From contig JAHBTG010000011.1 in NCBI GenBank assembly GCA_019638695.1, forward strand, positions 1 to 57,915: 57,915 nucleotides of DNA, read 5' to 3'. The stretch is from Bacteroidota bacterium. GTDB taxonomy: Bacteria > Bacteroidota > Bacteroidia > J057 > JAJTIE01. Both the position numbers and the translations under genes were made by a program. The notes beneath the pieces are model-generated. The model searched no databases. It saw only the letters and a list, made by a program, of their open reading frames with translations, and was not told where the DNA came from. Of the stretch, positions 8,336 through 36,048 are shown in pieces; within the stretch, counting starts at the first letter, position 1; every line of letters begins with the position of its first letter.

Positions 8336-9919
8336 GTGCGCATCTGTCCGGAACTACTGTCTCATACTTCCCCGCTAGAGTGGTGGTGGCTGCCGCTGGT
8401 CTTTGCCCTGCTGGCCGGAGGAGGCGTGTATCTGTATTACCTGCCACACCTGCGTTCCCTGCGGGAAATGAATGTGGATCTACGTCACAAAATGGAAGAT
8501 CGTGCCAAAGTGGTAGTACAGCAGAAAGAGGTCATTCAGCATAAGATCCGCAGCCTGGAGAAAGCCTACAGCGACTTCAAGGTCATGAGCAAGATAGGCC
8601 AGGAACTGACCACCAGCCTGGAACTGGAGAAGGTATTTGACAAACTCTATGAGCAGGTGAACCTGCTGATGGATGCCGCCGTGTTCGGCGTGCATTTATA
8701 TGACGAACCCGGGCAGATCATCCATTACAAGTATGTGCTGGAAAACGGCGAGCGGCAGCCTTCCGTAGAAATCCCCTTGGGGCATCCCACCCTTTCAGCC
8801 TATTGTATTCGCAACCGGGAAGAACTGTTCATTGCCAACCTGGCCAAGGAATACCGCCGCTACCTGCCCAGCGCGCAGCCCGTGACGGGGCAGCTCCCCA
8901 GTTCGGTCCTCTATATGCCGCTTATCCTCCAGAACGATGTGCTGGGCGCCATTACGGTACAGAGCTTTACCCAGAACGCCTATTCCCAGGAACATGTGAG
9001 CGTATTACGGGTGCTGGCCAGCTACACGGCCATTGCCATAGGCAATGCCAATGCTTTTGAGCGGCTGGAAGCGGCACGCGCCAGTATCCACCAGCAGCAT
9101 GAAGAGATCATTGAGAAGAATACAAGTCTCACCCTGGCCTACGAGATCATCGAGCGGCATAACGAAGCCATCCTGGACTCCCTGGCCTACGCCCGCCGCA
9201 TCCAGGAAGCCATTATGCCTTCTCACAAGGAAGTGAGCCGCGTACTGCCCAACAGCTTTATCTATTACAAGCCTAAGGATATTGTGAGCGGGGATTTCTT
9301 CTGGTATATGACCAAAGGCAACGTGGCCATGCTGGCGGCCGTGGACTGCACCGGGCATGGCGTGCCGGGGGCTTTTATGAGCGTGCTGGGCAGCACCCTG
9401 CTTAACCAGATAGTACACCAGGAGGGCCACACTTCGCCGGAGATCGTGCTCACACAACTGGACAAGCGGGTAATGACCATGCTCAAGCAAATGGACCCGG
9501 ATGCAGATGCCACGGACGGCATGGATGTCTCCCTGGTCACACTGAACCTGGGCACCCGGGAGATCCAGTTTGCCGGGGCTAATCGCCCGCTTTTCTATAT
9601 GCACAAAGGCGAGATGCACGAGCTCAAAGGCAACAAGTACCCCGTGGGCGGCAAATACAATGTGCACGACCCGTATGTAGGCCACACGGTGCCCCTGCAA
9701 CCCGGGGACAGTTTCTATATCTTTACAGACGGATTTGCAGACCAGTTCGGAGGAAACCGCCGACGCAAGTTTCTCAACAAACGTTTCATGCAGCTACTGG
9801 CCGATATCTCCCGGCTCCCCCTGGACAAGCAGCATCCTGCACTGAACGAAGCCTTTGAAACCTGGCGCGGAGATGAAAAACAACTGGACGATGTGCTGGT
9901 GGTGGGGGTGCAGGTCTAA
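8336..9919 (+). CDS. Membrane-anchored GAF-PP2C (SpoIIE-type) serine phosphatase
   Basis: 527 residues. A GTG start is chosen because it is the only initiator ahead of the hydrophobic segment WWWLPLVFALLAGGG (about residues 16-36). A coiled coil (40-85) follows, then a GAF sensor domain (about 90-240), a second helix and a C-terminal PP2C/SpoIIE phosphatase domain (about 300-527). That domain has SGDFFW, DCTGHGVPGAFMS and a late DGFADQFGG, i.e. the metal-binding Asp residues. Members of this family dephosphorylate anti-sigma-factor antagonists or partner-switch proteins. Same GAF-PP2C design as the response-regulator phosphatase at 32691-34421. It converges on porX with a 4-bp overlap. Confidence 0.85.
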   Translation: MRICPELLSHTSPLEWWWLPLVFALLAGGGVYLYYLPHLRSLREMNVDLRHKMEDRAKVVVQQKEVIQHKIRSLEKAYSDFKVMSKIGQELTTSLELEKVFDKLYEQVNLLMDAAVFGVHLYDEPGQIIHYKYVLENGERQPSVEIPLGHPTLSAYCIRNREELFIANLAKEYRRYLPSAQPVTGQLPSSVLYMPLILQNDVLGAITVQSFTQNAYSQEHVSVLRVLASYTAIAIGNANAFERLEAARASIHQQHEEIIEKNTSLTLAYEIIERHNEAILDSLAYARRIQEAIMPSHKEVSRVLPNSFIYYKPKDIVSGDFFWYMTKGNVAMLAAVDCTGHGVPGAFMSVLGSTLLNQIVHQEGHTSPEIVLTQLDKRVMTMLKQMDPDADATDGMDVSLVTLNLGTREIQFAGANRPLFYMHKGEMHELKGNKYPVGGKYNVHDPYVGHTVPLQPGDSFYIFTDGFADQFGGNRRRKFLNKRFMQLLADISRLPLDKQHPALNEAFETWRGDEKQLDDVLVVGVQV

Positions 9920-11475
9920 CGTCCCCGGGACTCCAGCACAGCCAGGGGTACTATCATCTCCTCCATGCTGATACCTCCATGCTGCAGGCTGTCGGCATAG
10001 AGGTTTACATAGTGGTTATAGTTGTTGGGGTAAACAAAGTACCCGTCCTCCAGCGCAAACGCATAGGAGCTGCTGACATTGCTGGCAGGCAGGCGAATAT
10101 CCCCGGGATTGCGAAAGCCCAGAATATGACGGTCCTTGGGGTCATAGTTCAGGTTACGGCCTTGCTTGTAGCGCAGGTTGGTGGAGGTATCGCGGTCGCC
10201 CACAATTTTGAGCGGCCGTTTCACCCGCACCACACCGTGATCTGTGGTAATCACCAGGCGAGCGCCTTTCTGGGCCAGTAATTGCAGGGCAGGCAGCAAC
10301 GGACTGTGCTGAAACCAGCTTTTGCTCAGGCTGCGCACGGCGGCTTCGTTGGGAGCCAGTTGTTTGATAATGGCCATTTCGCTGCGGGCATGGGCCAGCA
10401 TATCTATGAAGTTGATGACTACGCAGTTTAAGGTGTTTCCCAGGCTATTATGCAGGCCGTCCGCCCATTGCTTCATGTCAGTCTCTGTGAGCACTTTGGT
10501 ATAGGACCACGCTATATCCAGGCGGGACTGCCTGAGCTGCTCTGCCATCAGTTCCTGCTCATAGAGGTTCTTACCCCTATCCTCATCGTCATAGACCCAG
10601 TACTGCGGGTACTTCTTGGCAATCTCATCGGGAAAAAGACCGGCAAACAGGGCATTGCGGGCATACTGGGTGGCCGTGGGGAGTATGGCAAAATAACTTT
10701 GCTCTTCCACAAGGGTCCAGTGGGGCTGCAGCAGGGGTAGCAGGGTGCGCCACTGGTCATACCGCATACAATCTATGAGCAGGAAATACGTAGGCCGGTC
10801 AGCAGAGAGGCGAGGCAGCACCTGGCTGCGCATGACATCCGGGGAAAGCAGGGGACGCTCCGCAGCGGGCGCCTTCACCCAATGCGCGTAGTGCCTGGCT
10901 ATATATTTGCCAAAGTTCACATTGGCCTCCTGGAACTGGCTGTTGAGCACCTCCTGCATCCCCTTATCCTCGCTTTGCTGCAGCTCCATGTCCCAGAATA
11001 CCAGTTTCTGGTACACCTCTGCCCACTCCTGCGCATCCAGTTGTTCACCAAAGCGCATGGACAGGCGGGTAAACTCCCGCTGGTAACTGCGGGTGGTCTT
11101 CTGGCTCACCAGTTCCTTGCCCTCCATCAGCTTCTTGATACTGAGGAGCACCTGGTTAGGGTTCACAGGCTTGATCAGGTAATCTGCGATCTTGGCCCCG
11201 ATCGCATCTTCCATGACATGCTCTTCCTCGCTCTTGGTGATCATCACCACGGGCAGATGCGGATATACCTGCTTGATACGGTCCAGCGTTTCCAGCCCGC
11301 TGAGGCCGGGCATATTCTCATCCAGAAAAACCAGGTCATACGCCTCTTCCTGCAGCATATCCAGGGCATCTTCTCCCCCGGTAGCCGTATTCACAGACAT
11401 GCCTTTCTGCTCCAGGAACAGGATCTGGGGCTTAAGAAAGGCTATTTCATCATCTACCCAAAGGATATGCGCCAT
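9916..11475 (-). CDS. porX: PorX-type response regulator with PglZ domain (type IX secretion control)
   Basis: 519 residues. The N-terminal receiver domain (1-125) has VDDE and the phospho-acceptor Asp52 in LVFLDENMPG, plus the conserved Lys in LIKPVNP. After a helical linker (130-215) comes a PglZ/alkaline-phosphatase-superfamily domain with YFLLIDCMRYDQW and VITTDHG, carrying candidate metal ligands. This REC-PglZ architecture is that of PorX, which with the kinase PorY controls type IX secretion genes in Porphyromonas and Flavobacterium. No porY or sigP gene is in the window. pth lies upstream on the same strand. Confidence 0.9.
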   Translation of the reverse strand: MAHILWVDDEIAFLKPQILFLEQKGMSVNTATGGEDALDMLQEEAYDLVFLDENMPGLSGLETLDRIKQVYPHLPVVMITKSEEEHVMEDAIGAKIADYLIKPVNPNQVLLSIKKLMEGKELVSQKTTRSYQREFTRLSMRFGEQLDAQEWAEVYQKLVFWDMELQQSEDKGMQEVLNSQFQEANVNFGKYIARHYAHWVKAPAAERPLLSPDVMRSQVLPRLSADRPTYFLLIDCMRYDQWRTLLPLLQPHWTLVEEQSYFAILPTATQYARNALFAGLFPDEIAKKYPQYWVYDDEDRGKNLYEQELMAEQLRQSRLDIAWSYTKVLTETDMKQWADGLHNSLGNTLNCVVINFIDMLAHARSEMAIIKQLAPNEAAVRSLSKSWFQHSPLLPALQLLAQKGARLVITTDHGVVRVKRPLKIVGDRDTSTNLRYKQGRNLNYDPKDRHILGFRNPGDIRLPASNVSSSYAFALEDGYFVYPNNYNHYVNLYADSLQHGGISMEEMIVPLAVLESRGR

Positions 11476-18754: not shown

Positions 18755-20542
18755 CTAGAACTCCCAGCTTTTCCAGCTGTCTTCCAAGCTGGGACTGGCC
18801 TGCAACGTGGGAGTTTGCGGGCGGTTGAAGAGCAGCAAGGCATGCAGCGACACTTCGCCCTCCAGCCGATCGGCCAGTTCACCATAGGTAATACCCTCAG
18901 GGTACTGGTTCAGCAGCATCATGAGGAAATAGCTGAAGAGGCCGTGACGCGCCTGGCGATAGGGCAATGCCGCCTGCTCGCCGGTACTGGCAGAGAAGAT
19001 GACCGTATTGCCCTGTACCTCCACGGGTTTGGGTTTGATGATGACGCCCCGGGCAGCGATAGGGGAATCCCCGCTGCGGCTTTGCCCGCTGAAGCACGCA
19101 TCCAGGAACATCGTCAGCCGTGCCGGCCCCGGTTGCGTGAGGCGAGAGATGACCTCGCTGATCAGGATGGCTTTATTAGGAGCGTGCGGGTTCACATCCA
19201 CCGGCAGCAGGAAACTTTCCCGGGTGCCTTCCTGGGGAATGCCATGCCCGGCATAGAAGAAGAAAAGCTCAGCTTTATAGCCATAGTTCTTGGCCAGCAG
19301 GCTCAGTTTGGTGAGCTCATTGTCCATCTGTGCAGCAGTGCCATTGGTAAGGATCAATATGTTGCGGCGGGGAATGCCCAGCCTTTTTTCGGCATACTCT
19401 GCAAACAGGAGCCCGTCTGACAGGGCATATTCCACATTGATCTCTCCGGCGCCCGTGTTGTAATCACTGTACGCTTCATTGGCTATCACCAGTGCAAAAC
19501 GCTGGGGTTGCTGGGCAATGACGGGGATATTGGTACTGATGTCCATAGGCGGCTTGTAACGCTCGGGGTCTTTGCGCGCCACCTCATAGCGTATGGGGGA
19601 GATATTGAGATGAGAGACATCCCACAAGCGGATGGTCTTGTCTGCAGAAGCAGTGGCCACATATTTGCCGTCGGGGCTGAAAACAGCCTGCCAGAGCGCG
19701 CCTATGTGCCCATTGAGCACCTGCATTTCTTCGCCGGTGAGTGCATTCCAGATGCGGGCGCTCCTGTCCCGGCTGGCGGTCACTACCAACTGTCCATCGG
19801 GACTAAAGGCCACGGAACGCACAATATCCGTATGTCCCTTTATACCCTGGAAGGTGGCGGCGTCTTTCCAGATGCGCACCGTGCGGTCCAGGCTGGCAGA
19901 AGCCAGCAGCTTGCCATCGGGGCTCACCGCCAGTCCGCGTATGGTATTCTTGTGGCCCTTGAGCTGGCGCACCAGCCTCCCGGTATTGATCTCCCACAAG
20001 GTCACAACGGCTTCGGCACCGGCGGTATAGAGATATTGCCCCTGCGGGTCTATCGCCACCGCATACACGGTATTCTTATGCTCGGGGAAAGACTGTTCCC
20101 AGTTCTCGTGGATATCCCACAGGCGGGCGGTGCGGTCCCAGCCGGCGGTAGCAATGGTAGCACCATCTGCACCAAAGGACACGCACTCCAAAGGCTTACC
20201 CTGGCTGTCAAAACTCTTGAGCAGGCGCCCGGTCACCACGTCCCATATCTTCAGGGTGCCATCGCTGCTACCCGATGCCAGGAGGGTACCGTCCGGGCTG
20301 AAGGACAGACTGTTAACACTGGCCGTATGGGCATCCAGCGTCTGGCTGAGCGCACCGGTGCGGGCATTCCACAGGCGGATGGTGCGGTCGCTGCTGCCCG
20401 ATGCCAGGAGCTGGCCGTCGGGACTGAAAGCTACGGTATTGACATCCAGCGTGTGGCCATGCAGTTCCCGGAATTTCTGTGCCCAAACGGTCAGCGGTGC
20501 CAGCAGGCACAACAGCAAAAAGGGGCGTAGCAGTGCTTTCAT
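18755..20542 (-). CDS. Exported WD40-caspase (peptidase C14) protein
   Basis: 595 residues. Start at the ATG at 20542 gives the signal peptide MKALLRPFLLLCLLAPLTVWA. Residues 27-310 hold seven WD40 units, each with a SPDG..(L/V)A(S/T)(G/A)S..(R/K)T..(I/L)W pattern, enough for one closed propeller. Residues ~348-590 are a caspase-like domain with the catalytic dyad His433 (FFFYAGHG) and Cys483 (MFLDACFSG). This WD40 plus C14 pairing is usual in cytoplasmic bacterial proteins, but here the signal peptide sends it out of the cytoplasm. Last gene of an operon with a DUF4384-like and an LPP20-like protein, families often fused to caspases. Substrate and role unknown. Confidence 0.88.
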   Translation of the reverse strand: MKALLRPFLLLCLLAPLTVWAQKFRELHGHTLDVNTVAFSPDGQLLASGSSDRTIRLWNARTGALSQTLDAHTASVNSLSFSPDGTLLASGSSDGTLKIWDVVTGRLLKSFDSQGKPLECVSFGADGATIATAGWDRTARLWDIHENWEQSFPEHKNTVYAVAIDPQGQYLYTAGAEAVVTLWEINTGRLVRQLKGHKNTIRGLAVSPDGKLLASASLDRTVRIWKDAATFQGIKGHTDIVRSVAFSPDGQLVVTASRDRSARIWNALTGEEMQVLNGHIGALWQAVFSPDGKYVATASADKTIRLWDVSHLNISPIRYEVARKDPERYKPPMDISTNIPVIAQQPQRFALVIANEAYSDYNTGAGEINVEYALSDGLLFAEYAEKRLGIPRRNILILTNGTAAQMDNELTKLSLLAKNYGYKAELFFFYAGHGIPQEGTRESFLLPVDVNPHAPNKAILISEVISRLTQPGPARLTMFLDACFSGQSRSGDSPIAARGVIIKPKPVEVQGNTVIFSASTGEQAALPYRQARHGLFSYFLMMLLNQYPEGITYGELADRLEGEVSLHALLLFNRPQTPTLQASPSLEDSWKSWEF

Positions 20543-20583
20543 AATGGCTAGGGTTGAAGGGAAGAGACAGGACAGAGGAAGAG

Positions 20584-21663
20584 TTATCGTTTGCTGTTGA
20601 CAATGGAAATATCCAGTACCATTACCTGAAAGGACTCCCGCATAGCCTGGTTGAGTGAGAGCCATTCCTGGAAGTCTTCGCTCACGATCTTGCGGGGAAA
20701 CTGGAAGCCCCTGAGCGCAGAATCCATCCGGTTGGTCACCTGGCGGCTAGCCTCCAGCAAAGGTTTGTTATAGGGCTCGGGCGAAAAGACCACGAATATC
20801 CGTTCACTGATCACCTGCTGGCTACCGGTATGCAGCACCATTTCATCTATAGGGATACCCGGCTGTGTAAAAGGATAGTGGCGGGCATCGGGCGAAAAGA
20901 GCAGGTATTCCTTGCCGGCTTCCACGCGCATGCCGCTGGCCTGGTCGCGGGGCATCTGCAGGTAAGGCATCAGGCAATAGGCATATTCCTGGTCATCCAG
21001 CCACAGGGAGAGCCAGCCATCGGCCGGACTGCGGAAGCGCAGATACAGCTGGTCACCGGTATGGAAGTCATGGGTTATGCAGTCGCTGTTCGTGGCGCAG
21101 TACAGGGGCTGAGCCTCAAAGCGCACAGGGGGGCTTTTGAGCTCCCGGGCCAGACCGCTGATGCTGCACCTGACGATATACTCTGTACGGCCTTTACGTT
21201 TGGCTTTTTTGGATACGCGCCCTTTGGGGTCATAATATACCTCTTCTTCGGTATACGTTTCATTCAGGGTGCGCACCCAGTCTCCTTTCACATAGGTGTT
21301 GGCTATCATATTGAAACGGGAGAAGGTGCGGGCACGGCTACCGGCACTCTCGTTGGTGACCGTGGTGCTGTTGGAACGATACACAACCGCTCCATAAGTC
21401 TTCTCCAGGGCATCTATCATAGCCAGCTGACGCACTTCCTTCTTGGCTTCATTAATGGCTGCGGGGCTGGGTTCGCCCTTCAGAATAAGTTCTGCAGCGC
21501 CGCTTACCCGGTCTGTACCGGCCACCGGATCCAGGTCCGGCGAGGCACTTACACCAGATTCCCGGACAATGCGCCCGGGAGAGGAATCCTGTGCCCGCAC
21601 TTCATAGCAAAGCCCCCCCATACTGAGCAACAGCAATAGTGCGATATGGAGGGGCGTATGCAT
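20584..21663 (-). CDS. Exported DUF4384-like protein of the caspase operon
   Basis: About 359 residues. Start taken at the ATG at 21663 (signal peptide MHTPLHIALLLLLSMGGLCYEVRA); an ATG at 21690 adds nine residues and is closer to the upstream stop. The N-terminal half (about 50-170) resembles the LPP20/FlgP-type fold, with AAINEAKKEVRQLAMIDALEK and a basic linker GRVSKKAKRKGR. The C-terminal half matches the DUF4384 pattern: HTGDQLYLRFRSPADGWLSLW, YCLMPYLQMP, VEAGKEYLLFSP. DUF4384 is frequently fused directly to caspase domains; here it is encoded 41 bp upstream of the caspase gene, suggesting they act as a complex. Family assignment is by pattern only. Confidence 0.7.
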   Translation of the reverse strand: MHTPLHIALLLLLSMGGLCYEVRAQDSSPGRIVRESGVSASPDLDPVAGTDRVSGAAELILKGEPSPAAINEAKKEVRQLAMIDALEKTYGAVVYRSNSTTVTNESAGSRARTFSRFNMIANTYVKGDWVRTLNETYTEEEVYYDPKGRVSKKAKRKGRTEYIVRCSISGLARELKSPPVRFEAQPLYCATNSDCITHDFHTGDQLYLRFRSPADGWLSLWLDDQEYAYCLMPYLQMPRDQASGMRVEAGKEYLLFSPDARHYPFTQPGIPIDEMVLHTGSQQVISERIFVVFSPEPYNKPLLEASRQVTNRMDSALRGFQFPRKIVSEDFQEWLSLNQAMRESFQVMVLDISIVNSKR

Positions 21664-25461: not shown

Positions 25462-26748
25462 CTAGAGACTCCAGTATCTGAGAGAAGTGATTTGATTGCG
25501 GTACAGTCCTTTAAGGTCTACCAGCAGGCCCGGGGATCTGAGATGAGCTTTGAACCAGGCTTCATCAAACTGCCTGTATTCATTATGGGGCACTGCCAGG
25601 ATGATGGCATCGTAGTCCTTGCCTATCTGCGGAGTAAGCTCAATACCATATTCCTCGTGCACCTCTTCATTCACGGCATAGGGGTCTACTACATCCACAT
25701 TCACCATAAAGGAACGCAGTTCGTTATACATATCCACCACTTTACTGTTGCGGATATCCTGCACATTTTCCTTGAAGGTGATCCCCATAATCAGCACACG
25801 GGTATCGCGGATGCTCTTGCCTTGTGCAATGAGCATCTTCACCACCTTCTGGCCCACCACGGGGCCCATAGAGTCGTTGATATCACGACCAGCCAGTATC
25901 ACTTTGGCATGATAGCCCAGTTCGGAAGATTTGTAGGTGAGATAATACGGATCGACCCCTATGCAGTGGCCGCCCACCAGGCCGGGCTGGTATTTCTGGA
26001 AGTTCCACTTGGTGCCGGCCGCTTCTATGACATCATAGGTATTAATCCCCATCAGGTCAAAGATGAGGCTGAGTTCGTTCATCAGCGCAATGTTGAGGTC
26101 GCGCTGGGTGTTCTCAATGATCTTGGCGGCCTCTGCCACTTTGATGCTGGAAGCCTGGTGCAAACCGGCCTCTATGATCAGCGCATACACATCATGGATC
26201 TCTTTGGCAGCCTCGGGAGTATCTCCGGATACGATCTTTTTAGTATTGCTCAGGGTATGCACCTGGTCTCCGGGATTGATGCGTTCCGGGCTATACCCCA
26301 CATGGAAGTCCTGTTTCCACTTGAGGCCGCTCTGCTCCAGGATGGGGATACAGTCTTCTTCGGTGCAGCCGGGGTATACGGTGCTTTCATACACCACGTA
26401 ATCCCCGGGTTTTAATACCTTGCTGAGGGTACGGCTGGCAGACAATACCGGGGTGAGGTCAGGATTGCGGCGCTGGTCTATAGGCGTGGGCACCCCCACT
26501 ACAAAGAAATGGGCATTGCGCAAGTCCTCTGCACGGGCAGTAAAAGTAATATCGCAACCTTCAAAAGCACTGGCGGGCAGTTCGCCGCTAGGGTCTATGT
26601 GCTGCTGCATCTGCTGTACCCGATTCTCATTAATATCGAAACCTATGACACGCAGCTTGCGCGCAAATAACAGGGCAATGGGAAGTCCTACATATCCCAG
26701 CCCTATAACGGCCAGGGTCTTTTCTTTTTTGAGTAGCTCAGCGTACAT
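25462..26748 (-). CDS. Nucleotide-sugar 6-dehydrogenase (TviB/WbpA-like)
   Basis: 428 residues. The NAD-binding N-terminus is VIGLGYVGLPIALLFA (about 14-29). Further motifs: VGVPTPID, YESTVYPGCTEEDC, YSPERINPGD, and the catalytic Cys262 in LVGGHCIGVDPYYLTYKS. A C-terminal UDP-binding part has GITFKENVQDIRNSKVVD. It performs a two-step oxidation of a UDP-sugar C6 alcohol to the carboxylate; the closest pattern is the UDP-GlcNAc/GalNAc dehydrogenase group (TviB, WbpA). First gene of the polysaccharide segment running down to the sugar transferase. Substrate assignment is inference. Confidence 0.9.
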   Translation of the reverse strand: MYAELLKKEKTLAVIGLGYVGLPIALLFARKLRVIGFDINENRVQQMQQHIDPSGELPASAFEGCDITFTARAEDLRNAHFFVVGVPTPIDQRRNPDLTPVLSASRTLSKVLKPGDYVVYESTVYPGCTEEDCIPILEQSGLKWKQDFHVGYSPERINPGDQVHTLSNTKKIVSGDTPEAAKEIHDVYALIIEAGLHQASSIKVAEAAKIIENTQRDLNIALMNELSLIFDLMGINTYDVIEAAGTKWNFQKYQPGLVGGHCIGVDPYYLTYKSSELGYHAKVILAGRDINDSMGPVVGQKVVKMLIAQGKSIRDTRVLIMGITFKENVQDIRNSKVVDMYNELRSFMVNVDVVDPYAVNEEVHEEYGIELTPQIGKDYDAIILAVPHNEYRQFDEAWFKAHLRSPGLLVDLKGLYRNQITSLRYWSL

Positions 26749-26994
26749 GAGAATTTATTGACCTAGTATCTGATTGAACCCCATGGAGATGATTTCCACA
26801 ACTGCGGGCGGCAGGCCAAAATTAGAAAAACTCGATAGCATGGGGGAAAGAACCGGTCTTTTTTTATCATAAATAAAAGTTAGGGCATAAAAAAGTGTGG
26901 CAGCACTTGACAAGAACTAAGTAATAATACTTATTTTGTATCTCTTACCTGTTAAGAGATTATCCCTAAGTAAAAAACCTGCCTGACTAACCGT
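26749..26994. other. Divergent intergenic region
   Basis: 246 bp between the polysaccharide operon (minus) and the porin-like gene (plus). The right half is AT-rich and contains the promoter at 26907-26938. An imperfect palindromic stretch, TTACCTGTTAAGAGATTATCC, cut here for length, follows the predicted start of transcription. No ORF. Confidence 0.4.
26907..26938 (+). promoter_or_regulatory. Promoter of the porin / UrtA-like gene unit
   Basis: TTG (26907-26909), 21 nt, then TTATTTTG (26931-26938), one mismatch from TAnnTTTG. The start of transcription would be about 50 nt upstream of the ATG at 26995. Confidence 0.55.
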
Positions 26995-28377
26995 ATGAAA
27001 AATCTATTCCTGGGAGCCAGTCTGCTGCTATGCGGGCTGTCTGCCGCCGTGGCACAACAAAGCACCCACACACCTCCCCTTCCCTTACTGGATACTCCCA
27101 CGCTGCAGGCTCAGCAAACTATCCAGCGCCAGGTGTCGGCACTGAAGACCGGCAGCGCCATGGATTATTACCTCGGCCTGCGCCGCAGCAAGCTCCGCGG
27201 TCTCACGCTGGGCCAGGCAGCTGACGCTGCTGATGACAAGGCGGCCGGGTTCAAACCCACCTTCAGCGCCGGTGCACTCATCCACGTAGTGGGCGCCGGG
27301 TTCCAGGACCGGCCCTCTGCAGACCCCAATGCCCAGGCGGACCAGGAATGGCAGCGCCAGCTCTTTAACTACCGCACCCGCCTGCTGTTCGGGGGCAACG
27401 TAAGCGCCAAGACCAGCTGGTTCATAGAAACCGAGGCCCCCACGGTAGACGGTATCGGCTGGGGCGCCGGGGATACCACCCGCAACATCCAGGTATCTCC
27501 CATTATCCTGGACGCCCAGGTAGAGCATCGTTTCAGCGATGCGTTCAGCATCATTGCTGGGATGCAGCTGGTGGGTATCAACCGCAACCAGCTCCAGGGC
27601 GCCGCTTCACTCATGGGAGTGGACTTCGGGTACTACCAATACAACTATACGCTCACCCAGAACTCCCCGCTCCAGAATAACTATGGCCGCGACATCGGGG
27701 TGAACCTCCGCGGTTTCTTCCTGGACAACCGCCTGGAATACCGCCTGGGTTTCTTCGGTGGCCGCAGCTGGGACAACAAAGGTCCTTTCCGCACCATTGC
27801 CCGCCTGTGCTACAATTTCCTGGACACGGAAACCGGCCAGTACTACACCGGCAACAGCCTGGGCAGCAGCAAACTCTTCTCCATAGGAGCCGGAGTGGAT
27901 ATGCAGGGCGGGTATACTGCTTTTGGTGCAGATGCATTCCTGGACCTGCCGGTGAGCGAGAGCCTCAGCATCCTGGCCAACACCAGCTACAGCATGCTGA
28001 ACGGCGGAGACCCGGGCAATCCCTATAATATGGGTACACTGATCCCCAAGCAGTCTATCCTCTTTGGTGAAGTGGGACTGTATGCCAGGAAGTTGAAACT
28101 CTCCCCTTTCTTCATCATTGAGATGAATACTTTTGACGGCGACCGCGCCCAACTGGGCCTGCCCGAATCGGCCGACAGCGACGCCCTGTCAGATGCCAAT
28201 GCCTTGCGCGATATTTCCCGTATGGGTGGCGGCCTGTGCTACTACTTCAACGGGTACAATGCCAACATCAAGCTCCAGTACATCACCGACACGGTGCACA
28301 GCTTCAATCCGGATGGCAACGTAGTGGGCCTCAGCCGGGGTGTCATCTGGGCACAATTACAACTCTTCGTATTTTAG
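26995..28377 (+). CDS. Outer-membrane porin-like beta-barrel
   Basis: 460 residues. The signal peptide MKNLFLGASLLLCGLSAAVAQ is followed by a ~60-residue helical, Gln-rich segment and then alternating beta-strands with many aromatic girdle residues: FNYRTRLLFGGNVSAKTSWFIETEAP, LDAQVEHRFSDAFSIIAGMQL, NRLEYRLGFFGG. It ends in GVIWAQLQLFVF, a typical barrel terminus. This resembles porins of the phosphate/anion-selective type, but no family is certain. It directly precedes the UrtA-like lipoprotein (40 bp), so a role in bringing a small solute to that binding protein is likely. Preceded by its own promoter. Confidence 0.75.
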   Translation: MKNLFLGASLLLCGLSAAVAQQSTHTPPLPLLDTPTLQAQQTIQRQVSALKTGSAMDYYLGLRRSKLRGLTLGQAADAADDKAAGFKPTFSAGALIHVVGAGFQDRPSADPNAQADQEWQRQLFNYRTRLLFGGNVSAKTSWFIETEAPTVDGIGWGAGDTTRNIQVSPIILDAQVEHRFSDAFSIIAGMQLVGINRNQLQGAASLMGVDFGYYQYNYTLTQNSPLQNNYGRDIGVNLRGFFLDNRLEYRLGFFGGRSWDNKGPFRTIARLCYNFLDTETGQYYTGNSLGSSKLFSIGAGVDMQGGYTAFGADAFLDLPVSESLSILANTSYSMLNGGDPGNPYNMGTLIPKQSILFGEVGLYARKLKLSPFFIIEMNTFDGDRAQLGLPESADSDALSDANALRDISRMGGGLCYYFNGYNANIKLQYITDTVHSFNPDGNVVGLSRGVIWAQLQLFVF

Positions 28378-28417
28378 TACGTGTTTTCCTGTATCACTTT
28401 CTCCTAAAATCTATCCT

Positions 28418-29677
28418 ATGAAACGCATATTCTTTCTCCTGCTGGCCCTGCCCCTATTCTTAGCAGCCTGTGGCGGCGATGGCGAGAACAAAGACAATGA
28501 CAAAGATGTCATCTACGTGGGGGTGCTTCATTCGCTAACCGGCACTATGTCCATCAGCGAAATTGCGGTAAAAGACGCTACGCTCATGGCTATAGACGAG
28601 CTCAACGAAAAAGGCGGACTGCTGGGCAAAAAGATCGTGCCCATCGTAGTGGACGGCAAAAGCGACTGGCCCATATTTGCTTCCGAAGCCGAGAAGCTCA
28701 TCAAAGACAAAAAGGTGGATGTCATCTTCGGTTGCTGGACCTCCGCCAGCCGCAAGACGGTGAAGCCTGTATTTGAGGCCAACAACCACCTGCTGTTCTA
28801 TCCGGTGCAGTACGAGGGCCTGGAGCAGTCTCCCAATATTGTGTACACCGGCGCAGCCCCCAACCAGCAGATCATCCCTGCAGCCAAGTGGGCCATGGAC
28901 AAAGGCTGGACCAAGATCTTCCTCATCGGTTCGGACTATGTATTCCCCCGCACGGCCAATGCCATTATCAAAGACCAGGTCAAAGGGCTGGGCGGCACCA
29001 TTGTGGGCGAAGAATACATCCTGCTGGGCAGCAAAGATGTGGATGCCGCCATTGCCAAAATCAAGGCCAGCGGCGCACAGGTTATCCTGAACACCATCAA
29101 CGGAGACACCAACGTGGAGTTCTTCAAGAAGTTGCGGGCAGCGGGCATCACTCCGGAGAAAATGCCCACGATCTCCTTCAGCATCGCAGAGGATGAACTG
29201 CGCAGTATGAACGTCAAAGAAATGGTTGGCGACTATGCCGCCTGGAATTACTTCATGAGCATTGAAAGTGCAGACAACAAAGGCTTTGTAGAGCGGTACA
29301 AGAAGAAATTCGGGGATACGCGTGTGACCGACGACCCCATCGAAGCCGGCTACTTTGGCGTATACCTGTGGGCCAATGCCGTGAAAAAAGCCAATACCTC
29401 TGCTGTGGGCGAGGTGCGCAAGGCGCTGGGAGAACTGAGCTACGATGCGCCGGAAGGGCTTGTGTACATAGACGGGCCCACCCAGCATACCTGGAAAGCG
29501 GTACGCATCGGTCAGATCAAAGAAAACGGCCAGTTCGACATCGTATGGAGCTCTGAAAAACCCATCCGTCCCGTGCCGTTCCCAGACACCCGCACGCGTG
29601 AAGAATGGGAGAAATTCCTCAGCGATCTCTATGAAGGCTGGGGCAAATCATGGGCCAATCCCGGCAAAAAAGAATAG
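28418..29677 (+). CDS. UrtA/AmiC-like substrate-binding lipoprotein
   Basis: 419 residues; start at the ATG at 28418 gives a lipoprotein signal with lipobox LAAC (Cys18). The body is a type I periplasmic binding fold of the urea/short-chain-amide group: VGVLHSLTGTMSISE, IDELNEKGGLLGKKI, VIFGCWTSASRKTVKPVFE, LLFYPVQYEGLEQSPNIVYTGAAPNQQ and IEAGYFGVYLWANAV are diagnostic of UrtA/FmdD/AmiC. No urtBCDE permease or ATPase genes follow; instead a terminator and then a histidine kinase and two response regulators. It may therefore act as a sensor rather than, or besides, a transporter subunit. The family assignment is strong; the sensing role is inferred. Confidence 0.88.
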   Translation: MKRIFFLLLALPLFLAACGGDGENKDNDKDVIYVGVLHSLTGTMSISEIAVKDATLMAIDELNEKGGLLGKKIVPIVVDGKSDWPIFASEAEKLIKDKKVDVIFGCWTSASRKTVKPVFEANNHLLFYPVQYEGLEQSPNIVYTGAAPNQQIIPAAKWAMDKGWTKIFLIGSDYVFPRTANAIIKDQVKGLGGTIVGEEYILLGSKDVDAAIAKIKASGAQVILNTINGDTNVEFFKKLRAAGITPEKMPTISFSIAEDELRSMNVKEMVGDYAAWNYFMSIESADNKGFVERYKKKFGDTRVTDDPIEAGYFGVYLWANAVKKANTSAVGEVRKALGELSYDAPEGLVYIDGPTQHTWKAVRIGQIKENGQFDIVWSSEKPIRPVPFPDTRTREEWEKFLSDLYEGWGKSWANPGKKE

Positions 29678-29695
29678 TTAATTTTTGGTGAGAGT

Positions 29696-29732
29696 ACTTA
29701 CAGGTGGCCTTCGGTCGCCTGTAAGTTTTTCT
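29696..29732 (+). terminator. Terminator after the UrtA-like gene
   Basis: ACTTACAGG...CC (from 29696) pairs with GG...CCTGTAAGT (to 29726) around a TTCG tetraloop, with two wobble/mismatch pairs, followed by TTTTTCTTGTTT. The histidine kinase gene starts 53 bp further on. Confidence 0.8.
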
Positions 29733-29784
29733 TGTTTAATACCCCCCTTTAGTTTACCCAACCGTTCTTTCGTTTTGCACTGCT

Positions 29785-32181
29785 ATGGCATTGAATCCTC
29801 TCCGTTTTATCAACGCGCGTATTGTGCGCCAGTTGTTGTTCTGGTTCCTGGCTATCGAGTTCCTGGCCGAAGCCACCCTGATCTATGTTTCCTACCGCAA
29901 CGCCGAACACTCTATCCGCAAGGAAGTCACCAACAACCTGAACGCCATTGCCACCCGGCAGGCCAACCAGCTGGGCACTTACCTGGACGGGCAGCAGCGC
30001 GCGGTCACCACCCTGTCCCGCGCCCCGGAGATTGTCAATGCCGCCGCGGAGCTGTCCGAATTCTTTGAGCAATCCGGCAAAACGCACCTGGCCGCCTATG
30101 CTGCCAGGCTTTCCTCACAGCAGGCTAACCTCGACTATTACAAGAATGCCTACCAGTTTGAGAACCTGCTGCTCATTGCCTCTACCGGCGAAGTATTGTT
30201 TGACAGCAAAGGCACCACCGAGATCGGCAGCCATATAGAACTGGGCCGCTACAAAGGCACAGAGCTGGCCAGTGTATACAGCCGGGCCAAAACCCTGCTG
30301 CAAACCGAGCTTTCGGACTTCAGCTACCTGCCCGGGGATAATGTGGCCAGCGCATACCTGGCAGCGCCCATTCGCAAGGGAGTCAAAGTGAGCGCTATCC
30401 TGGTGGTGCGTATCAGCAATGCAGAGATCAACAAGGTGGTTAATGATTATGTAGGCCTGGGACGTACGGGCGAGACCATCATTGCCTCCAAGTTTGGCAA
30501 AGACGCGCTCTTTATCAACGACGCGCGCAACGAACCCAACACTGCCTTCAAAAAGAAGATCCCGCTGGACGGCAGCCAGGACTCTACACTGGCACATGCC
30601 GTGCAGGGCAAGAGCGGCAGCGGCACTGTCGTAGATTACCGGGGCCAGGAGGTGTTTGCCGTGTGGAGCTATGTGCCCGCGTTACGTGCCGGACTGGTGG
30701 TAAAGATCGATACCGAAGAAGCCTTTGAGTCCATCAGCGCCTTGCGCAAGCTGCTCATCACCATCGTGGGCATCACACTCTTTGTGGTGATCTTCGCGGC
30801 CCTCAGCGTTGCCCGTTCCATCACCAAGCCTATCCGCAAACTGCGGGGTTTTGCAGAGGTGGTAGCTTCCGGAGACCTGAGCCAGCGCATATCGCTCAAG
30901 GAGCAGAACGAGATCGGGGTGCTGGCCAATACCTTCAACACCATGGTGGACAACCTCAACGAGAGTAACCGCAAGCTGGACGAATATGCCAAAGGGCTGG
31001 AGGCCATGGTCACCCAGCGCACGGAAGAGCTGCAGGCCACCCTGGAAGAGGTACAGAACCAGAATGCGCTCATTGAGCAGCAAAAGGTAAAGGCCGAACA
31101 ACTGGCGCAGGAGGTGCAGCAGGCGCTGGACCAGCTCCAGTCTACTCAGGACCAGCTGGTGCAAAGCGAAAAGATGGCCGCCCTGGGCCAGCTCATTGCC
31201 GGTGTGGCGCATGAACTGAACACCCCCCTGTCTGCCATTAAAACCTCTGCACGCAACATGAACCGCAGCGTGGCCTATGCCCTGGTGGAGTTTCCCCAGT
31301 ACCTGCTCAACCTCAAACCGGAGCAGCGGGAATTACTGATGGCTATGGTGCAGCAAGCTACCGAGTTTACCCTGAACCAAACCACCAAGGAAGACCAGGA
31401 ATACCGCAAGCAGATCAAAGCTGTGCTGGATGATAATGACGTGGAAAATTCCCGTGAGATCTCCAAAAAACTGGTGGAAATGGGTGTGGTCACCGGCGTG
31501 GAAAGATATCTGCCGGTCTTTGATGAGGCCAATGCCGAAGATCTGCTGGAAGCCGTCTATCAGGTGGCGCAGCTCAAGCGCAGCATAGACAGCATCTCCA
31601 TCGCTTCGGACAAATCTGCCAATGTGGTGCGGGCGCTCAAGCAATACAGCCACGTGCAGGCTCAGGACAAGTTTGTGATGACGGACGTCAACGAGACCCT
31701 GGATATTATCCTCACCGTATACAATAACCAGATCAAGTATGGGGTGAACGTGGTGCGGGAATACGATAACTCACTGCCAGCCATCCCCCTGTTCCCCGAC
31801 GAAATAGGCCAGGTATGGACCAACCTCATTAACAACGGCATACAGGCCATGAAAGGCAAGGGAGACCTCATGCTGCGCACCAGCGCCGTAGGGCAGGATT
31901 ATGTGGCGGTAGAGATCATAGACTCAGGTTCCGGCATCCCGCCGGAGATCATGGACAAGATATTCGAACCGTTCTTCACCACCAAGCCACAGGGAGAAGG
32001 CACCGGGCTGGGGCTGGACATTGTGCGCAAGATCGTGGAGAAGCACCGGGGCAAGCTATCCGTCACCTCCCAGCCGGGGCAAACAGCCTTCCGGGTAGAG
32101 CTGCCGCTGGTGCAGCCGGATGCCGAGGTGGAAGAGGGAACGCCATCTCCCGAACAAATCAAGGACGGCATCGCCGGCTAG
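29785..32181 (+). CDS. Sensor histidine kinase with periplasmic Cache-like domain and HAMP
   Basis: 798 residues. TM1 is about 16-36, followed by a large periplasmic sensor (40-310) with a Cache-like pattern (FENLLLIASTGEVLFDS, GETIIASKFGKDALF, VVDYRGQEVFAVWSYVP). TM2 is about 322-342, then HAMP (SITKPIRKLRGFAEVVASGD) and a long coiled coil (395-465). The HisKA box has His476 in GVAHELNTPLS. The ATPase domain carries the N box (VWTNLINNGIQAM), G1 (DSGSGIP), F box (EPFFTT) and G2 (GEGTGLGLDI). About 100 residues more than usual separate the H box from the ATPase domain, mostly acidic helices (500-600). Followed by two response regulators 37 bp and 58 bp apart. Confidence 0.92.
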   Translation: MALNPLRFINARIVRQLLFWFLAIEFLAEATLIYVSYRNAEHSIRKEVTNNLNAIATRQANQLGTYLDGQQRAVTTLSRAPEIVNAAAELSEFFEQSGKTHLAAYAARLSSQQANLDYYKNAYQFENLLLIASTGEVLFDSKGTTEIGSHIELGRYKGTELASVYSRAKTLLQTELSDFSYLPGDNVASAYLAAPIRKGVKVSAILVVRISNAEINKVVNDYVGLGRTGETIIASKFGKDALFINDARNEPNTAFKKKIPLDGSQDSTLAHAVQGKSGSGTVVDYRGQEVFAVWSYVPALRAGLVVKIDTEEAFESISALRKLLITIVGITLFVVIFAALSVARSITKPIRKLRGFAEVVASGDLSQRISLKEQNEIGVLANTFNTMVDNLNESNRKLDEYAKGLEAMVTQRTEELQATLEEVQNQNALIEQQKVKAEQLAQEVQQALDQLQSTQDQLVQSEKMAALGQLIAGVAHELNTPLSAIKTSARNMNRSVAYALVEFPQYLLNLKPEQRELLMAMVQQATEFTLNQTTKEDQEYRKQIKAVLDDNDVENSREISKKLVEMGVVTGVERYLPVFDEANAEDLLEAVYQVAQLKRSIDSISIASDKSANVVRALKQYSHVQAQDKFVMTDVNETLDIILTVYNNQIKYGVNVVREYDNSLPAIPLFPDEIGQVWTNLINNGIQAMKGKGDLMLRTSAVGQDYVAVEIIDSGSGIPPEIMDKIFEPFFTTKPQGEGTGLGLDIVRKIVEKHRGKLSVTSQPGQTAFRVELPLVQPDAEVEEGTPSPEQIKDGIAG

Positions 32182-32218
32182 TTATCACGCTGAACAATCA
32201 CTATAAACCTTAGGCATT

Positions 32219-32632
32219 ATGGGGAAACCGATTATCTTCCTGGTAGATGATGATAAACAATTACTGGACAGCCTGACTACCCAGCTGCGGGCAGCTGCCT
32301 TTGGCAAACAGATCAGCATAGAAACCGCACAAACCCTGGACGAAGCCTGGGATGCGCTCACCATTATGGTACACGAGGGCGACCGCATCGGGCTCATCGT
32401 ATCAGACTGGCTGTTCCCCCACGAGCAGCGCAGCAACGACTTCCTGGTCAGGGTACACAAGAAATATCCCGGCATACCGCTGGTGCTGCTCTCCGGCTAT
32501 GCAGACGAAGCCTCCGTACAGCAGGCCTTTGAACAGGCGGGGCTGCGGGCCTATTTCCGCAAACCCTGGGAAGAAGAGGAGCTGATGTCCGGGGTTGAAA
32601 AAATACTTATTTCAGAGAACATTTTGCAATAG
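32219..32632 (+). CDS. Single-domain response regulator (KPW-type receiver)
   Basis: 137 residues. Receiver domain with LVDDDKQ, phospho-acceptor Asp63 in LIVSDWLFPHE, LLSGYAD and the Lys of YFRKPWEEEEL. No output domain; it ends soon after the last helix. It shares the KPW motif with the receivers at 12291 and 32691. Lies 37 bp after the kinase and is probably its direct target, passing phosphate or blocking access to the REC-PP2C phosphatase downstream. That route is inferred from gene order. Confidence 0.9.
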   Translation: MGKPIIFLVDDDKQLLDSLTTQLRAAAFGKQISIETAQTLDEAWDALTIMVHEGDRIGLIVSDWLFPHEQRSNDFLVRVHKKYPGIPLVLLSGYADEASVQQAFEQAGLRAYFRKPWEEEELMSGVEKILISENILQ

Positions 32633-32690
32633 TCATATTTACTTAATTTTACGTCTTTACTTATTTTATATTCACCAGTAAATCCTGCTA

Positions 32691-34421
32691 ATGATGGCCA
32701 AGCCCCTAATTATTTGTGTTGATGACGAGCGCATTGTGCTGGACAGCCTGCGTTCCGAGCTGAGCTCCAACTTTGGCGACCGCTTTAGTTTTGAGATTGC
32801 CGACAACGGCGAAGAAGCCCTGCAACTGATCTCCGAGGCCAATGCCGAAGGCATAGATATCCCCGTAGTGATCTCCGACCAGCTGATGCCCGGCATGAAG
32901 GGAGACGAATTCCTCATTGCCGTCAACAAAATATACCCGGATAGCAAGAAGATCCTCCTCACCGGCCAGGCTTCTGCCGAGGCCGTAGGGAACGCCGTGA
33001 ACTTTGCCCGCCTCTACCGCTACATTGCCAAGCCCTGGGAGCAGAACGACCTCAAGCTCACGGTAGAAGAAGCGGCCCGCGCATTTATGCTGGACAAAGA
33101 GCTGGCCTCCCGCATAGATATGCTCAACAAGCTGAACAAAGCCGCCCAGCAGCTCTCCGAGCAGGTATCGCTCATCAAACTGATGGAGCATGTGATCAGC
33201 CTGGCCATAGAACATACCCACAGTGCCCGCGGCACCGTCATCTTCACACAGGGAGATACCGTACGCGTGGGCATCCGTGCCAGCCGGGTAGACGAGGTGC
33301 AAACCACCCTGCTGCCCTTTGAGGCGGCAGACTTTGGCCAGCATGTGCCTCTCACCGTATTCCGCAAACTGCAGGACGAAGGAGGCGGCCCGGTGGTAAC
33401 CAGCCTGGCCTATAAAGAAGAACCCTGGAAGGAGGACCGCTTTATTGCAGACAACAAGCTGCGAAGCCTCTACGCCACCAAAGTGGGCAAGCACGATATG
33501 GCCCTCTATATCTTCCTGGAAAGCGATAACCGCGAGCAATACACCCACATTACCCAGGAGTTCCTGGAGCTGTACGTTAAGCAGGTGGGCATTTGCATGG
33601 ACAACGCCGTGCTGTATGACGAGCTGGAGCAAAAAGTAGCCGAGCGTACCCGTGAGCTCAAGGAGCTCTACGAGAATGTGCAGGACAGCATCACTTACGC
33701 CCGGCGCATCCAATACGCCATCCTGCCCTCCCAGGAGCATTTCCTGGACCTCCTGCCCAACTACTTTGTGTTCTATGAACCCAAAGACATCGTCTGCGGC
33801 GACTTCTACTGGCTCAACCGCAAGGACGGCAAGATCCTGCTCGCGGCCCTGGATTGCACCGGCCACGGCGTACCCGGCGCATTTATGAGCGTGCTCGGCA
33901 ATAACCTGCTCAACCAGATCGTGATCGAGAACGGCATCACCAGCCCCAAGGACATCCTGGCAGAGCTGGACAACCGCATCCGCAAGACCCTGAAACAAGA
34001 AGCCAACGGCAACCAGGACGGTATGGACGTGTGCATGATCTCCATTAACCCCGCAGACAATACCCTCACCTTTGCCGGGGCCTTCCGTCCGCTGCTGCAC
34101 CAGCGCGGCGCCAAGCTCAACGAACTGAAGCCGGAACGCCAGAGCCTTGGCGGCAATCTTAAAGACAAAGTGCCCTTTACCAACCAGTCTATCCTGCTGG
34201 AGAAAGGCGACCGCATCTTCCTGTTCTCAGACGGCATTACCGACCAAATGGGCGGCCCGGACCAGCGCAAGTATACCACCAAACGTTTCACAGAGCATGT
34301 GGAGGCCACCCATGCCATAGACTTCCAGCAACAGTGCATACAACTGCAGGAAGCCTACTTTGAATGGAAAGGCGACTATGAGCAGATGGACGATGTCATG
34401 CTGCTGGCCTTTGAGTGGTAG
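32691..34421 (+). CDS. Response-regulator PP2C phosphatase (REC-GAF-like-SpoIIE)
   Basis: 576 residues. The receiver domain (4-125) has CVDDERIV, Asp63 in VVISDQLMPGMKG and YIAKPWEQNDL. A GAF-like sensor region (about 150-320) contains SARGTVIFTQGDTVRVGIRAS. A helix with TYARRIQYAILPSQ leads into the PP2C/SpoIIE domain (about 355-576), with CGDFYWL, DCTGHGVPGAFMS, QDGMDVCM and SDGITDQMGG as metal-site signatures. Phosphorylation of the receiver should control dephosphorylation of a partner-switch antagonist and so a sigma factor or other target; no anti-sigma or antagonist gene is adjacent. Closest relative in the window is the membrane phosphatase at 8336. Confidence 0.92.
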   Translation: MMAKPLIICVDDERIVLDSLRSELSSNFGDRFSFEIADNGEEALQLISEANAEGIDIPVVISDQLMPGMKGDEFLIAVNKIYPDSKKILLTGQASAEAVGNAVNFARLYRYIAKPWEQNDLKLTVEEAARAFMLDKELASRIDMLNKLNKAAQQLSEQVSLIKLMEHVISLAIEHTHSARGTVIFTQGDTVRVGIRASRVDEVQTTLLPFEAADFGQHVPLTVFRKLQDEGGGPVVTSLAYKEEPWKEDRFIADNKLRSLYATKVGKHDMALYIFLESDNREQYTHITQEFLELYVKQVGICMDNAVLYDELEQKVAERTRELKELYENVQDSITYARRIQYAILPSQEHFLDLLPNYFVFYEPKDIVCGDFYWLNRKDGKILLAALDCTGHGVPGAFMSVLGNNLLNQIVIENGITSPKDILAELDNRIRKTLKQEANGNQDGMDVCMISINPADNTLTFAGAFRPLLHQRGAKLNELKPERQSLGGNLKDKVPFTNQSILLEKGDRIFLFSDGITDQMGGPDQRKYTTKRFTEHVEATHAIDFQQQCIQLQEAYFEWKGDYEQMDDVMLLAFEW

Positions 34422-34429
34422 TCTCCCCC

Positions 34430-34495
34430 AGGGTTAAAGAGGTGCGACACCCTCTGTAACCCTTTGCCCTGCGTCACCGCTTCGTGCGGCAAAGG
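34430..34495. terminator. Two stem-loops between convergent genes
   Basis: AGGGTTA (34430-34436) pairs with TAACCCT (34457-34463) with a bulged inner stem, and CCTTTGCC (34461-34468) pairs with GGCAAAGG (34488-34495). They share bases, so they are alternative folds. They lie between the convergent phosphatase and HtrA genes. Neither has a clean T-run, so either weak bidirectional termination or a REP-like repeat is possible. The rest of the gap (34496-34614) holds nothing else I recognise. Confidence 0.5.
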
Positions 34496-34614
34496 ATCTC
34501 GTGCCCCTTTAAGAGGCGGAGGTGTCAGATCCCTCCCATTTTCTGCTTATCTCCGGTCGCACGGAAGACCGGCAGGTATGTTACCGGCGCATCCCCCCTT
34601 CCCGGAGGAACCGG

Positions 34615-36048
34615 TTAGTAAATATGAAAGCTATAGGTACCTCGTCCGCCATTGGGGTTGAGGCCGTCAATGATCAAGCGGCCACGGGCGCCTTTCAGCA
34701 GATCTTCCAGTTGGGCCAGCGTCTCCGGCGCCTGGCGGTTCACACTCAGGATAACAAAACCGTCGGGAAGCCCCAGTCGGCTGACAATACCGCTGCGCAG
34801 GTTACTCACCCGCCAGCCCCCTTGCTCCAGGCCTATCCGCTGGCGCTCCAGTTTGGTCAGGGGCACCACGTCGCAACCCAACGTTTCACTGAAGACCTCT
34901 GTCTTTTTAATAACGCTAGTAGTACCCTCCAAGTTGGTGAGCTTCACAGTAAGCGCCTGCAGTTTCCCTTTGCGGCGCAGCGTCAGCTGCACCTCGTCAC
35001 CCGGACTGTGATAGGCCAGGCGCTCCAGATATTCCGCTTTACTGTTCACATCCACGCCGTCTATTTTCAGCAGCACATCGTCCACGGCTACGCCGGCTTT
35101 ATCCGCCGCGCTGCCAGCATCCACACTATAGACCAGCACACCGCTGTAATCATCGTCGGGCAGGCGGTCTGCCAGTGTAGCATCGATATCCAGCACATCG
35201 GCGCCCAGGAAGGCCCTTTGTACGGTACCATGGTCTATGAGGTCTCGCATAACCTTACGCACAATATTCACAGGGATGGCAAATCCATACCCCTGGTAAG
35301 CTCCTGTTTTGGTGGCAATGGCCGTATTGATACCCACGAGGTTGCCCTGCGCATCTACCAGCGCGCCGCCGCTGTTGCCGGGGTTGATGGCGGCATCCGT
35401 CTGGATAAAGCTCTCAATAGGGAATTGCGTGCGCACGATATTGATATTGCGCCCTTTGGCCGATACGATTCCTGCCGTGACAGTGCTGGTAAGGTTAAGC
35501 GGGTTGCCAACGGCCAGGACCCATTCGCCGATGCGCACCCGGTCGCTGTTACCCAGGGTGATGGGGCGCAGCTCCCTGGCTTCTATCTTCAGCAGCGCCA
35601 GGTCTGTGCTGGGATCCGTGCCTATGATCCTGGCCAGGTAGCTGTGTTTGTTAGGCAGCAGCACCTCTATTTTGTCTGCACCGTCAATCACATGATTATT
35701 GGTGACGATATAGCCGTCTGCCGTGAGCACTACCCCGCTGCCCGCTCCGCTGACAGGGCCACGGCGGCCAAAGAAATCCCAGTGCGACCAGAACTCATCC
35801 GCGCCGCCGCGCCGGGCATTGGATATGGTTTTGATGAATACTACGGAGGGCGCCGCCTTCTCGGCAGCCATTGCAAAATCAGGGGCGCCGGCAGGCGAAT
35901 TTCCCACCGGGAAGACAGGTGTGGGGGATTCCGTAAAAAGCGCCCTGGAAGCATTGGGACGGGCTATCAGGTCAAATACCCAGGCGCCGCCTAAACCGGC
36001 CAGCAGGCTGAGCGCTAACAGCGCTATCGTCTTGTGCATGTTTTTCAT
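34615..36048 (-). CDS. HtrA/Deg-family periplasmic serine protease with two PDZ domains
   Basis: 477 residues. An N-terminal signal/anchor helix (KTIALLALSLLAGLGGAWVF) precedes a trypsin-like domain (about 60-265) with the full triad: His119 in VTNNHVI, Asp149 in DPSTDLALLK and Ser226 in INPGNSGGALVD. Two PDZ domains follow (about 278-370 and 385-470), the first with PDDDYSGVLVYSVDAGSAADKAGV. It degrades or refolds misfolded envelope proteins. Gene symbol left open because DegP, DegQ and DegS cannot be separated here. A second ATG three codons downstream is possible. Only 32 bp separate it from the divergent gene at 36081. Confidence 0.92.
   Translation of the reverse strand: MKNMHKTIALLALSLLAGLGGAWVFDLIARPNASRALFTESPTPVFPVGNSPAGAPDFAMAAEKAAPSVVFIKTISNARRGGADEFWSHWDFFGRRGPVSGAGSGVVLTADGYIVTNNHVIDGADKIEVLLPNKHSYLARIIGTDPSTDLALLKIEARELRPITLGNSDRVRIGEWVLAVGNPLNLTSTVTAGIVSAKGRNINIVRTQFPIESFIQTDAAINPGNSGGALVDAQGNLVGINTAIATKTGAYQGYGFAIPVNIVRKVMRDLIDHGTVQRAFLGADVLDIDATLADRLPDDDYSGVLVYSVDAGSAADKAGVAVDDVLLKIDGVDVNSKAEYLERLAYHSPGDEVQLTLRRKGKLQALTVKLTNLEGTTSVIKKTEVFSETLGCDVVPLTKLERQRIGLEQGGWRVSNLRSGIVSRLGLPDGFVILSVNRQAPETLAQLEDLLKGARGRLIIDGLNPNGGRGTYSFHIY

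Follow-up and report, generated by a model that had tools for sequence, protein, structure and literature searches.

Why is the gene for a UrtA-type urea-binding lipoprotein followed by a kinase-phosphatase relay rather than by the permease and ATPase genes of a urea importer? This question is raised by a 57,915-nucleotide stretch from a Bacteroidota bacterium (GenBank assembly GCA_019638695.1, contig JAHBTG010000011.1, positions 1 to 57,915; hereafter the window), which encodes a porin, a UrtA-type lipoprotein, a sensor histidine kinase, a lone receiver and a receiver-phosphatase protein in a row. Our computational analysis favors a urea-type receptor system without a transporter, in which the lipoprotein would present urea or a urea-like ligand to the kinase and the output would pass through the lone receiver (REC) and the REC-PP2C phosphatase; we assign this reading as a whole a probability of about 0.6. 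Comparative evidence gives good support to transporter-free sensing by a UrtA-type receptor, as had been proposed in a preliminary description of the sequence: the genome has neither an UrtB/LIV-type permease nor urease, and the pairing of UrtA with a dCache kinase recurs in four other genomes.

The five genes are co-directional, occupy positions 26995-34421 of the plus strand, and are separated by gaps of 40, 107, 37 and 58 bases:

26995..28377, plus strand: porin-like outer-membrane protein, 460 aa (weak ExtI-porin match; relative in Persicobacter)
28418..29677, plus strand: UrtA-type urea-binding lipoprotein (TIGR03407 over cut-off; lipobox LAAC; C-terminal helix)
29785..32181, plus strand: dCache-HAMP-HisKA-HATPase_c sensor histidine kinase, 798 aa (Pfam domains and motifs)
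32219..32632, plus strand: stand-alone receiver protein, 137 aa (acidic pair, SD, S and KP motifs)
32691..34421, plus strand: REC-PP2C (SpoIIE) phosphatase, 576 aa (receiver and PP2C catalytic motifs; PP2C nearest SiaA)

This content and order agree with the preliminary description, and both the lone receiver and the REC and SpoIIE/PP2C domains of the phosphatase were recovered by domain search. Two details required correction: the porin gene starts at the ATG at 26995 rather than at 26907, and a GAF domain assigned to the phosphatase has no Pfam support at E 1e-3. The urtA open reading frame was listed from a GTG at 28340, and translation probably starts instead at the ATG at 28418, a likelier start given the signal peptide (MKRIFFLLLALPLFLAAC) and lipobox.

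As first described, the row contains no permease or ATPase gene. No UrtD or UrtE gene lies next to urtA, which is followed by the kinase, receiver and REC-PP2C genes and then by a convergent DegP/HtrA-type gene. The absence of a permease extends to the whole genome (2.94 Mb in 146 contigs, 95.9% complete), in which an UrtB/LIV-type permease model has no match at E<=0.001; the same model is positive in 11 of 14 control genomes including E. coli. The refuting case named in the preliminary description, urtBCDE elsewhere in the genome, found no support in the permease search. There is one UrtA only, with no second copy in the genome, and a urease alpha subunit was not found there. For lack of a permease match, we rejected the reading of this UrtA as part of a working transporter.

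Among 395 genomes sampled from the phylum, six encode a UrtA (threshold E<=1e-60), and in five of these a dCache kinase gene comes next after urtA on the same strand, with no urtBCDE nearby. Besides the window genome these are G137, G022, G112 and G384, which represent three families in two other classes of the phylum, such that the five genomes with the pair span three classes in all. Neither UrtB above cut-off nor urease was found in any of the five; G022 has a below-cut-off LIV-type permease elsewhere in its genome and G137 a marginal one. The sixth genome, G154, carries urtA, an outer-membrane-protein gene, urtBCDE and urease. The paired genes overlap by 4 bp in G022 and are 12 bp apart in G137, and all five kinases have homologous sensor regions, with 22-65% identity across residues 1-430. 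The pairs fall in the same order whether ranked by UrtA or by kinase-sensor identity: G022 and G112 share 75.6% in UrtA and 65.1% in the sensor, the window genome and G137 share 66.6% and 48.5%, and values across these two groups are about 52-59% and 22-28%. The conserved adjacency anticipated in related genomes is thus present for the UrtA-kinase pair, and the complete five-gene order was found only in the window. Searches of the order (22 genomes), the class of G137 (98 genomes) and the class of G022 (245 genomes) yielded no further UrtA-kinase case, and a search of plasmids with the UrtA tail alone gave no convincing kinase-linked UrtA. Among 80 UrtA loci of named genomes (cyanobacteria for the most part), urtB comes after urtA in nearly every case in which the contig is long enough to show it. 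The exceptions include a Trichodesmium UrtA (L036 2844-4148, plus strand), which has no urtB-E in the 9 kb downstream, and a planctomycete fusion of a Ser/Thr kinase with a UrtA domain, described below.

Kinase-linked UrtAs also form a separate branch. In a midpoint-rooted tree of 26 UrtA sequences (five kinase-linked, one fused to a Ser/Thr kinase and 20 transporter-linked), which includes few transporter UrtAs from this phylum and has the fusion as a long branch, the kinase-linked sequences and the fusion are split from the transporter-linked ones with support of 100/99, and a single origin of this branch is likely. Its members, the fusion included, have in common a C-terminal extension of the form W..FL..LY..WGG.W, predicted to be a helix (residues 394-407) with a predicted local distance difference test score (pLDDT) near 80. 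The fusion itself is an 805-aa Ser/Thr protein kinase joined to a UrtA domain that bears this tail, encoded in a metagenome-assembled genome of the Phycisphaerales, a planctomycete (L011 2880-5297, plus strand). It has no strongly hydrophobic, membrane-like segment, and its contig also bears an ordinary-looking UrtA gene.

In the mechanism that we propose, the porin would admit small solutes to the periplasm, where the UrtA-type lipoprotein, whose pocket does not differ from that of urea-binding UrtA, would capture urea or a close analogue. The loaded lipoprotein would dock on the dCache domain of the kinase and alter its activity; the kinase would phosphorylate the lone receiver as well as that of the REC-PP2C protein; and the PP2C domain would remove phosphate from a regulator phosphorylated on Ser/Thr, for which a STAS- or SiaC-type partner-switch antagonist is the likeliest candidate. 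Several observations weigh against this. About 4% of the genome is missing, and only five UrtA-kinase pairs are known here, of which the other four have neither an adjoining porin nor a PP2C. A terminator-like hairpin parts urtA from the kinase gene, so that porin-urtA and the relay may be separate units. The identical pocket is compatible with a non-urea ligand in an organism without urease. Lastly, dCache domains often bind their ligands directly, and relatives of this sensor occur in a chemoreceptor and two cyclases with no substrate-binding protein (SBP) gene directly adjoining, at the three loci viewed.

The first alternative, unlikely though to be taken seriously, retains presentation of a ligand to the kinase and makes that ligand something other than urea: a short amide, a derivative of urea or some other small polar compound. 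With neither urease nor UrtB over cut-off in any of the five pair genomes, urea would have no obvious metabolic use in them, and AmiC, which has the same fold, binds amides. The pocket points the other way. The window UrtA scores 523.6 bits against the UrtA model TIGR03407 (cut-off 492.75), and among solved structures it is closest to the urea-binding protein 8tg1 (Z 48.1, 57% identity). Of the nine residues around urea in the Prochlorococcus UrtA complex (PMC10392092), all nine are identical by alignment in the window UrtA and in the other kinase-linked UrtAs. AmiC, aligned from 1pea, differs at the positions of Trp120, Gln144, Phe192 and Asn246, having Y, P, Y and V where the window protein keeps W, Q, F and N. 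The pocket is thus UrtA-like rather than AmiC-like, and of the amide or urea sensing first suggested, the urea part is the better supported. We rejected an AmiC-type amide receptor on the basis of these residues, and no domain like the ANTAR antiterminator AmiR occurs among the five genes. Judged from its sequence, the lipoprotein likely binds urea, our best guess, or possibly an analogue.

A second alternative, which we regard as improbable, is that the dCache kinase binds a ligand of its own and that the lipoprotein only shares its regulation, serving for instance as a ligand scavenger or buffer, with no contact between the two. The usual behavior of dCache domains, the chemoreceptor and cyclase relatives and the hairpin between the two genes are all in its favor. 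Set against these are the position of UrtA beside this one kinase subfamily in five genomes, with the tight spacing in G022 and G137, the membership of the kinase-linked UrtAs in their own clade with a shared tail, and a TLLQTE-type motif that UrtA-linked sensor domains share and that is absent from the three non-UrtA relatives compared. In the window kinase HAMP, HisKA and HATPase_c are over their Pfam cut-offs; dCache_1 is below (21.9 against 45) and is above in the 48%-identical G137 relative (53.8). A single-sequence AlphaFold model of the sensor has a pLDDT of 40, and a sequence search of the PDB with the sensor region gave no meaningful match. The phosphorylation motifs are intact, with His476 in HELNTP and complete N and G boxes.

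The porin has no Pfam match, and its ExtI-porin match is weak (55.5 bits against a cut-off of 150). In Persicobacter the gene directly upstream of urtA encodes a 44% identical porin, and downstream come urtBCDE and a urease gamma-like gene, recognised from the start of its sequence only. A porin-UrtA pair thus also heads a urea-uptake operon; that of the window is coupled to a signalling cassette. The remaining alternative, in which the lipoprotein is an orphaned component of an importer for urea or amides, either a remnant or acting with an unlinked permease, and has the kinase as neighbor by chance, draws on this operon and on the missing portion of the genome, and is very improbable given the lack of a LIV/UrtB-type permease, the UrtA-kinase adjacency in four other genomes without UrtB over cut-off, and an intact pocket that argues against decay.

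Returning to the receptor system and its output, both receivers have DD, SD and KP motifs, and the PP2C domain has the catalytic motifs GDFY, DCTGHG, FSDGI and DDVM and is nearest SiaA (6k4e). We keep the output through PP2C that had been suggested from the sequence as our reading for the window, and reject it as a conserved feature of UrtA-kinase systems: the other four pairs rely on hybrid kinases that carry receivers or on a separate regulator with two receiver domains. Complete or partial versions of the kinase, receiver and REC-PP2C arrangement, joined to other sensors, also occur elsewhere in this genome and across the order. Paralogous kinase/receiver cassettes that take other inputs lie in the same genome at L101 5460-9378 (minus strand), L100 4655-7188 (plus strand) and L102 3612-9422 (plus strand), and the REC-PP2C of the first is 48% identical to that of the window. 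The PP2C step is therefore local, belonging to a paralogous cassette of this lineage, and not a fixed part of the UrtA-kinase system. In G395, a sister genome of the same family, a PstS-like lipoprotein, a kinase with a PilJ-like sensor, a receiver and a REC-PP2C are encoded in a row (L104 4699-9434, plus strand), which indicates that, within the family, substrate-binding lipoproteins were joined to the cassette on two or more occasions. The gene upstream of that PstS-like protein, at first taken for a porin gene, encodes Tgt.

The remaining features of the locus concern its boundaries and transcription:

25462-26748, minus strand: UDP-sugar dehydrogenase-type gene, divergent from the porin gene
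26749..26994: intergenic region 5' of the porin gene, 246 bp, presumed promoter region
29696-29726, plus strand: terminator-like hairpin between urtA and the kinase gene, with a 14-bp stem and T-rich tail (fold z-score -3.05)
34615-36048: DegP/HtrA-type protease gene, convergent, downstream flank of the row

Inspection of 26749..26994 revealed no TAnnTTTG-type site, and no sigma-70-like site on its plus strand; Rfam gave no match within 26700-34700. Because of the hairpin, which sits inside the 107-base gap, the row is not clearly a single transcript. The hairpin suggests partial termination, by which the lipoprotein would be made in excess over the kinase; it may alternatively divide the row into two transcription units, porin-urtA and the kinase relay. 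Elsewhere in the window a GAF-PP2C gene (8336-9919, plus strand) is convergent with a REC-PglZ gene of PorX-like architecture (9916-11475, minus strand), with a 4-base overlap, and a 636-aa WD40 beta-propeller repeat protein is encoded at 18755-20665 (minus strand).

Sensor kinases activated by substrate-binding proteins, among them the TorS kinase with its partner TorT, are one of the closest parallels to this system. The mechanism is an established one (PMC9602780), for which a 2022 paper counted only about ten characterised cases (PMC9602780). BctC-BctE likewise has a binding-protein gene beside that of a kinase with a periplasmic sensor domain (PMC9602780); BctC differs in that it also serves a transporter, whereas the window pairs an SBP of the UrtA family with a dCache sensor, through a contact that we propose. 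The UrtAs of UrtABCDE importers (Synechococcus 7s6e, Prochlorococcus 8hic) and the Caldicellulosiruptor protein 8tg1 resemble the window UrtA in family model, fold and nine-residue pocket (48-58% identity), but the window system lacks permease, ATPases and urease, and its UrtA belongs to the kinase-linked clade with its own C-terminal helix. AmiC-AmiR of Pseudomonas aeruginosa (1pea, 1qo0) also employs a UrtA-fold protein as a receptor and not for transport, although identity to AmiC is only 31-32%, the pocket residues differ, and the window protein is an exported lipoprotein beside a membrane kinase whereas AmiR is a cytoplasmic antiterminator. The output resembles the SiaA/HsbR-type partner switches of P. 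aeruginosa, which likewise have a receiver-controlled PP2C, and in which SiaC, the target of SiaA, works in a partner switch (PMC7647112). The window row differs in having no SiaB, SiaC or STAS gene (SiaB and SiaC were not searched for); STAS proteins are encoded elsewhere in the genome.

With UrtA followed by a dCache kinase conserved in five genomes of three classes, the window system is a new variant of SBP-linked two-component signalling; in open-access papers we found no SBP-kinase case with UrtA and no bacterial two-component urea receptor. Since the five genomes with the pair have neither Urt importer nor urease, urea may act in them as a signal rather than a nutrient. We suggest tentatively, at somewhat less than even odds, that a distinct UrtA branch has been turned into dedicated urea signalling receptors, through histidine kinases in one phylum and a Ser/Thr kinase fusion in a planctomycete, with urea as an environmental signal. 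If so, receptors would be found among the proteins annotated as 'urea ABC transporter substrate-binding protein', easily told from transporter UrtAs by their C-terminal helix and the lack of a permease, and urea would be a signal worth testing in non-ureolytic bacteria.

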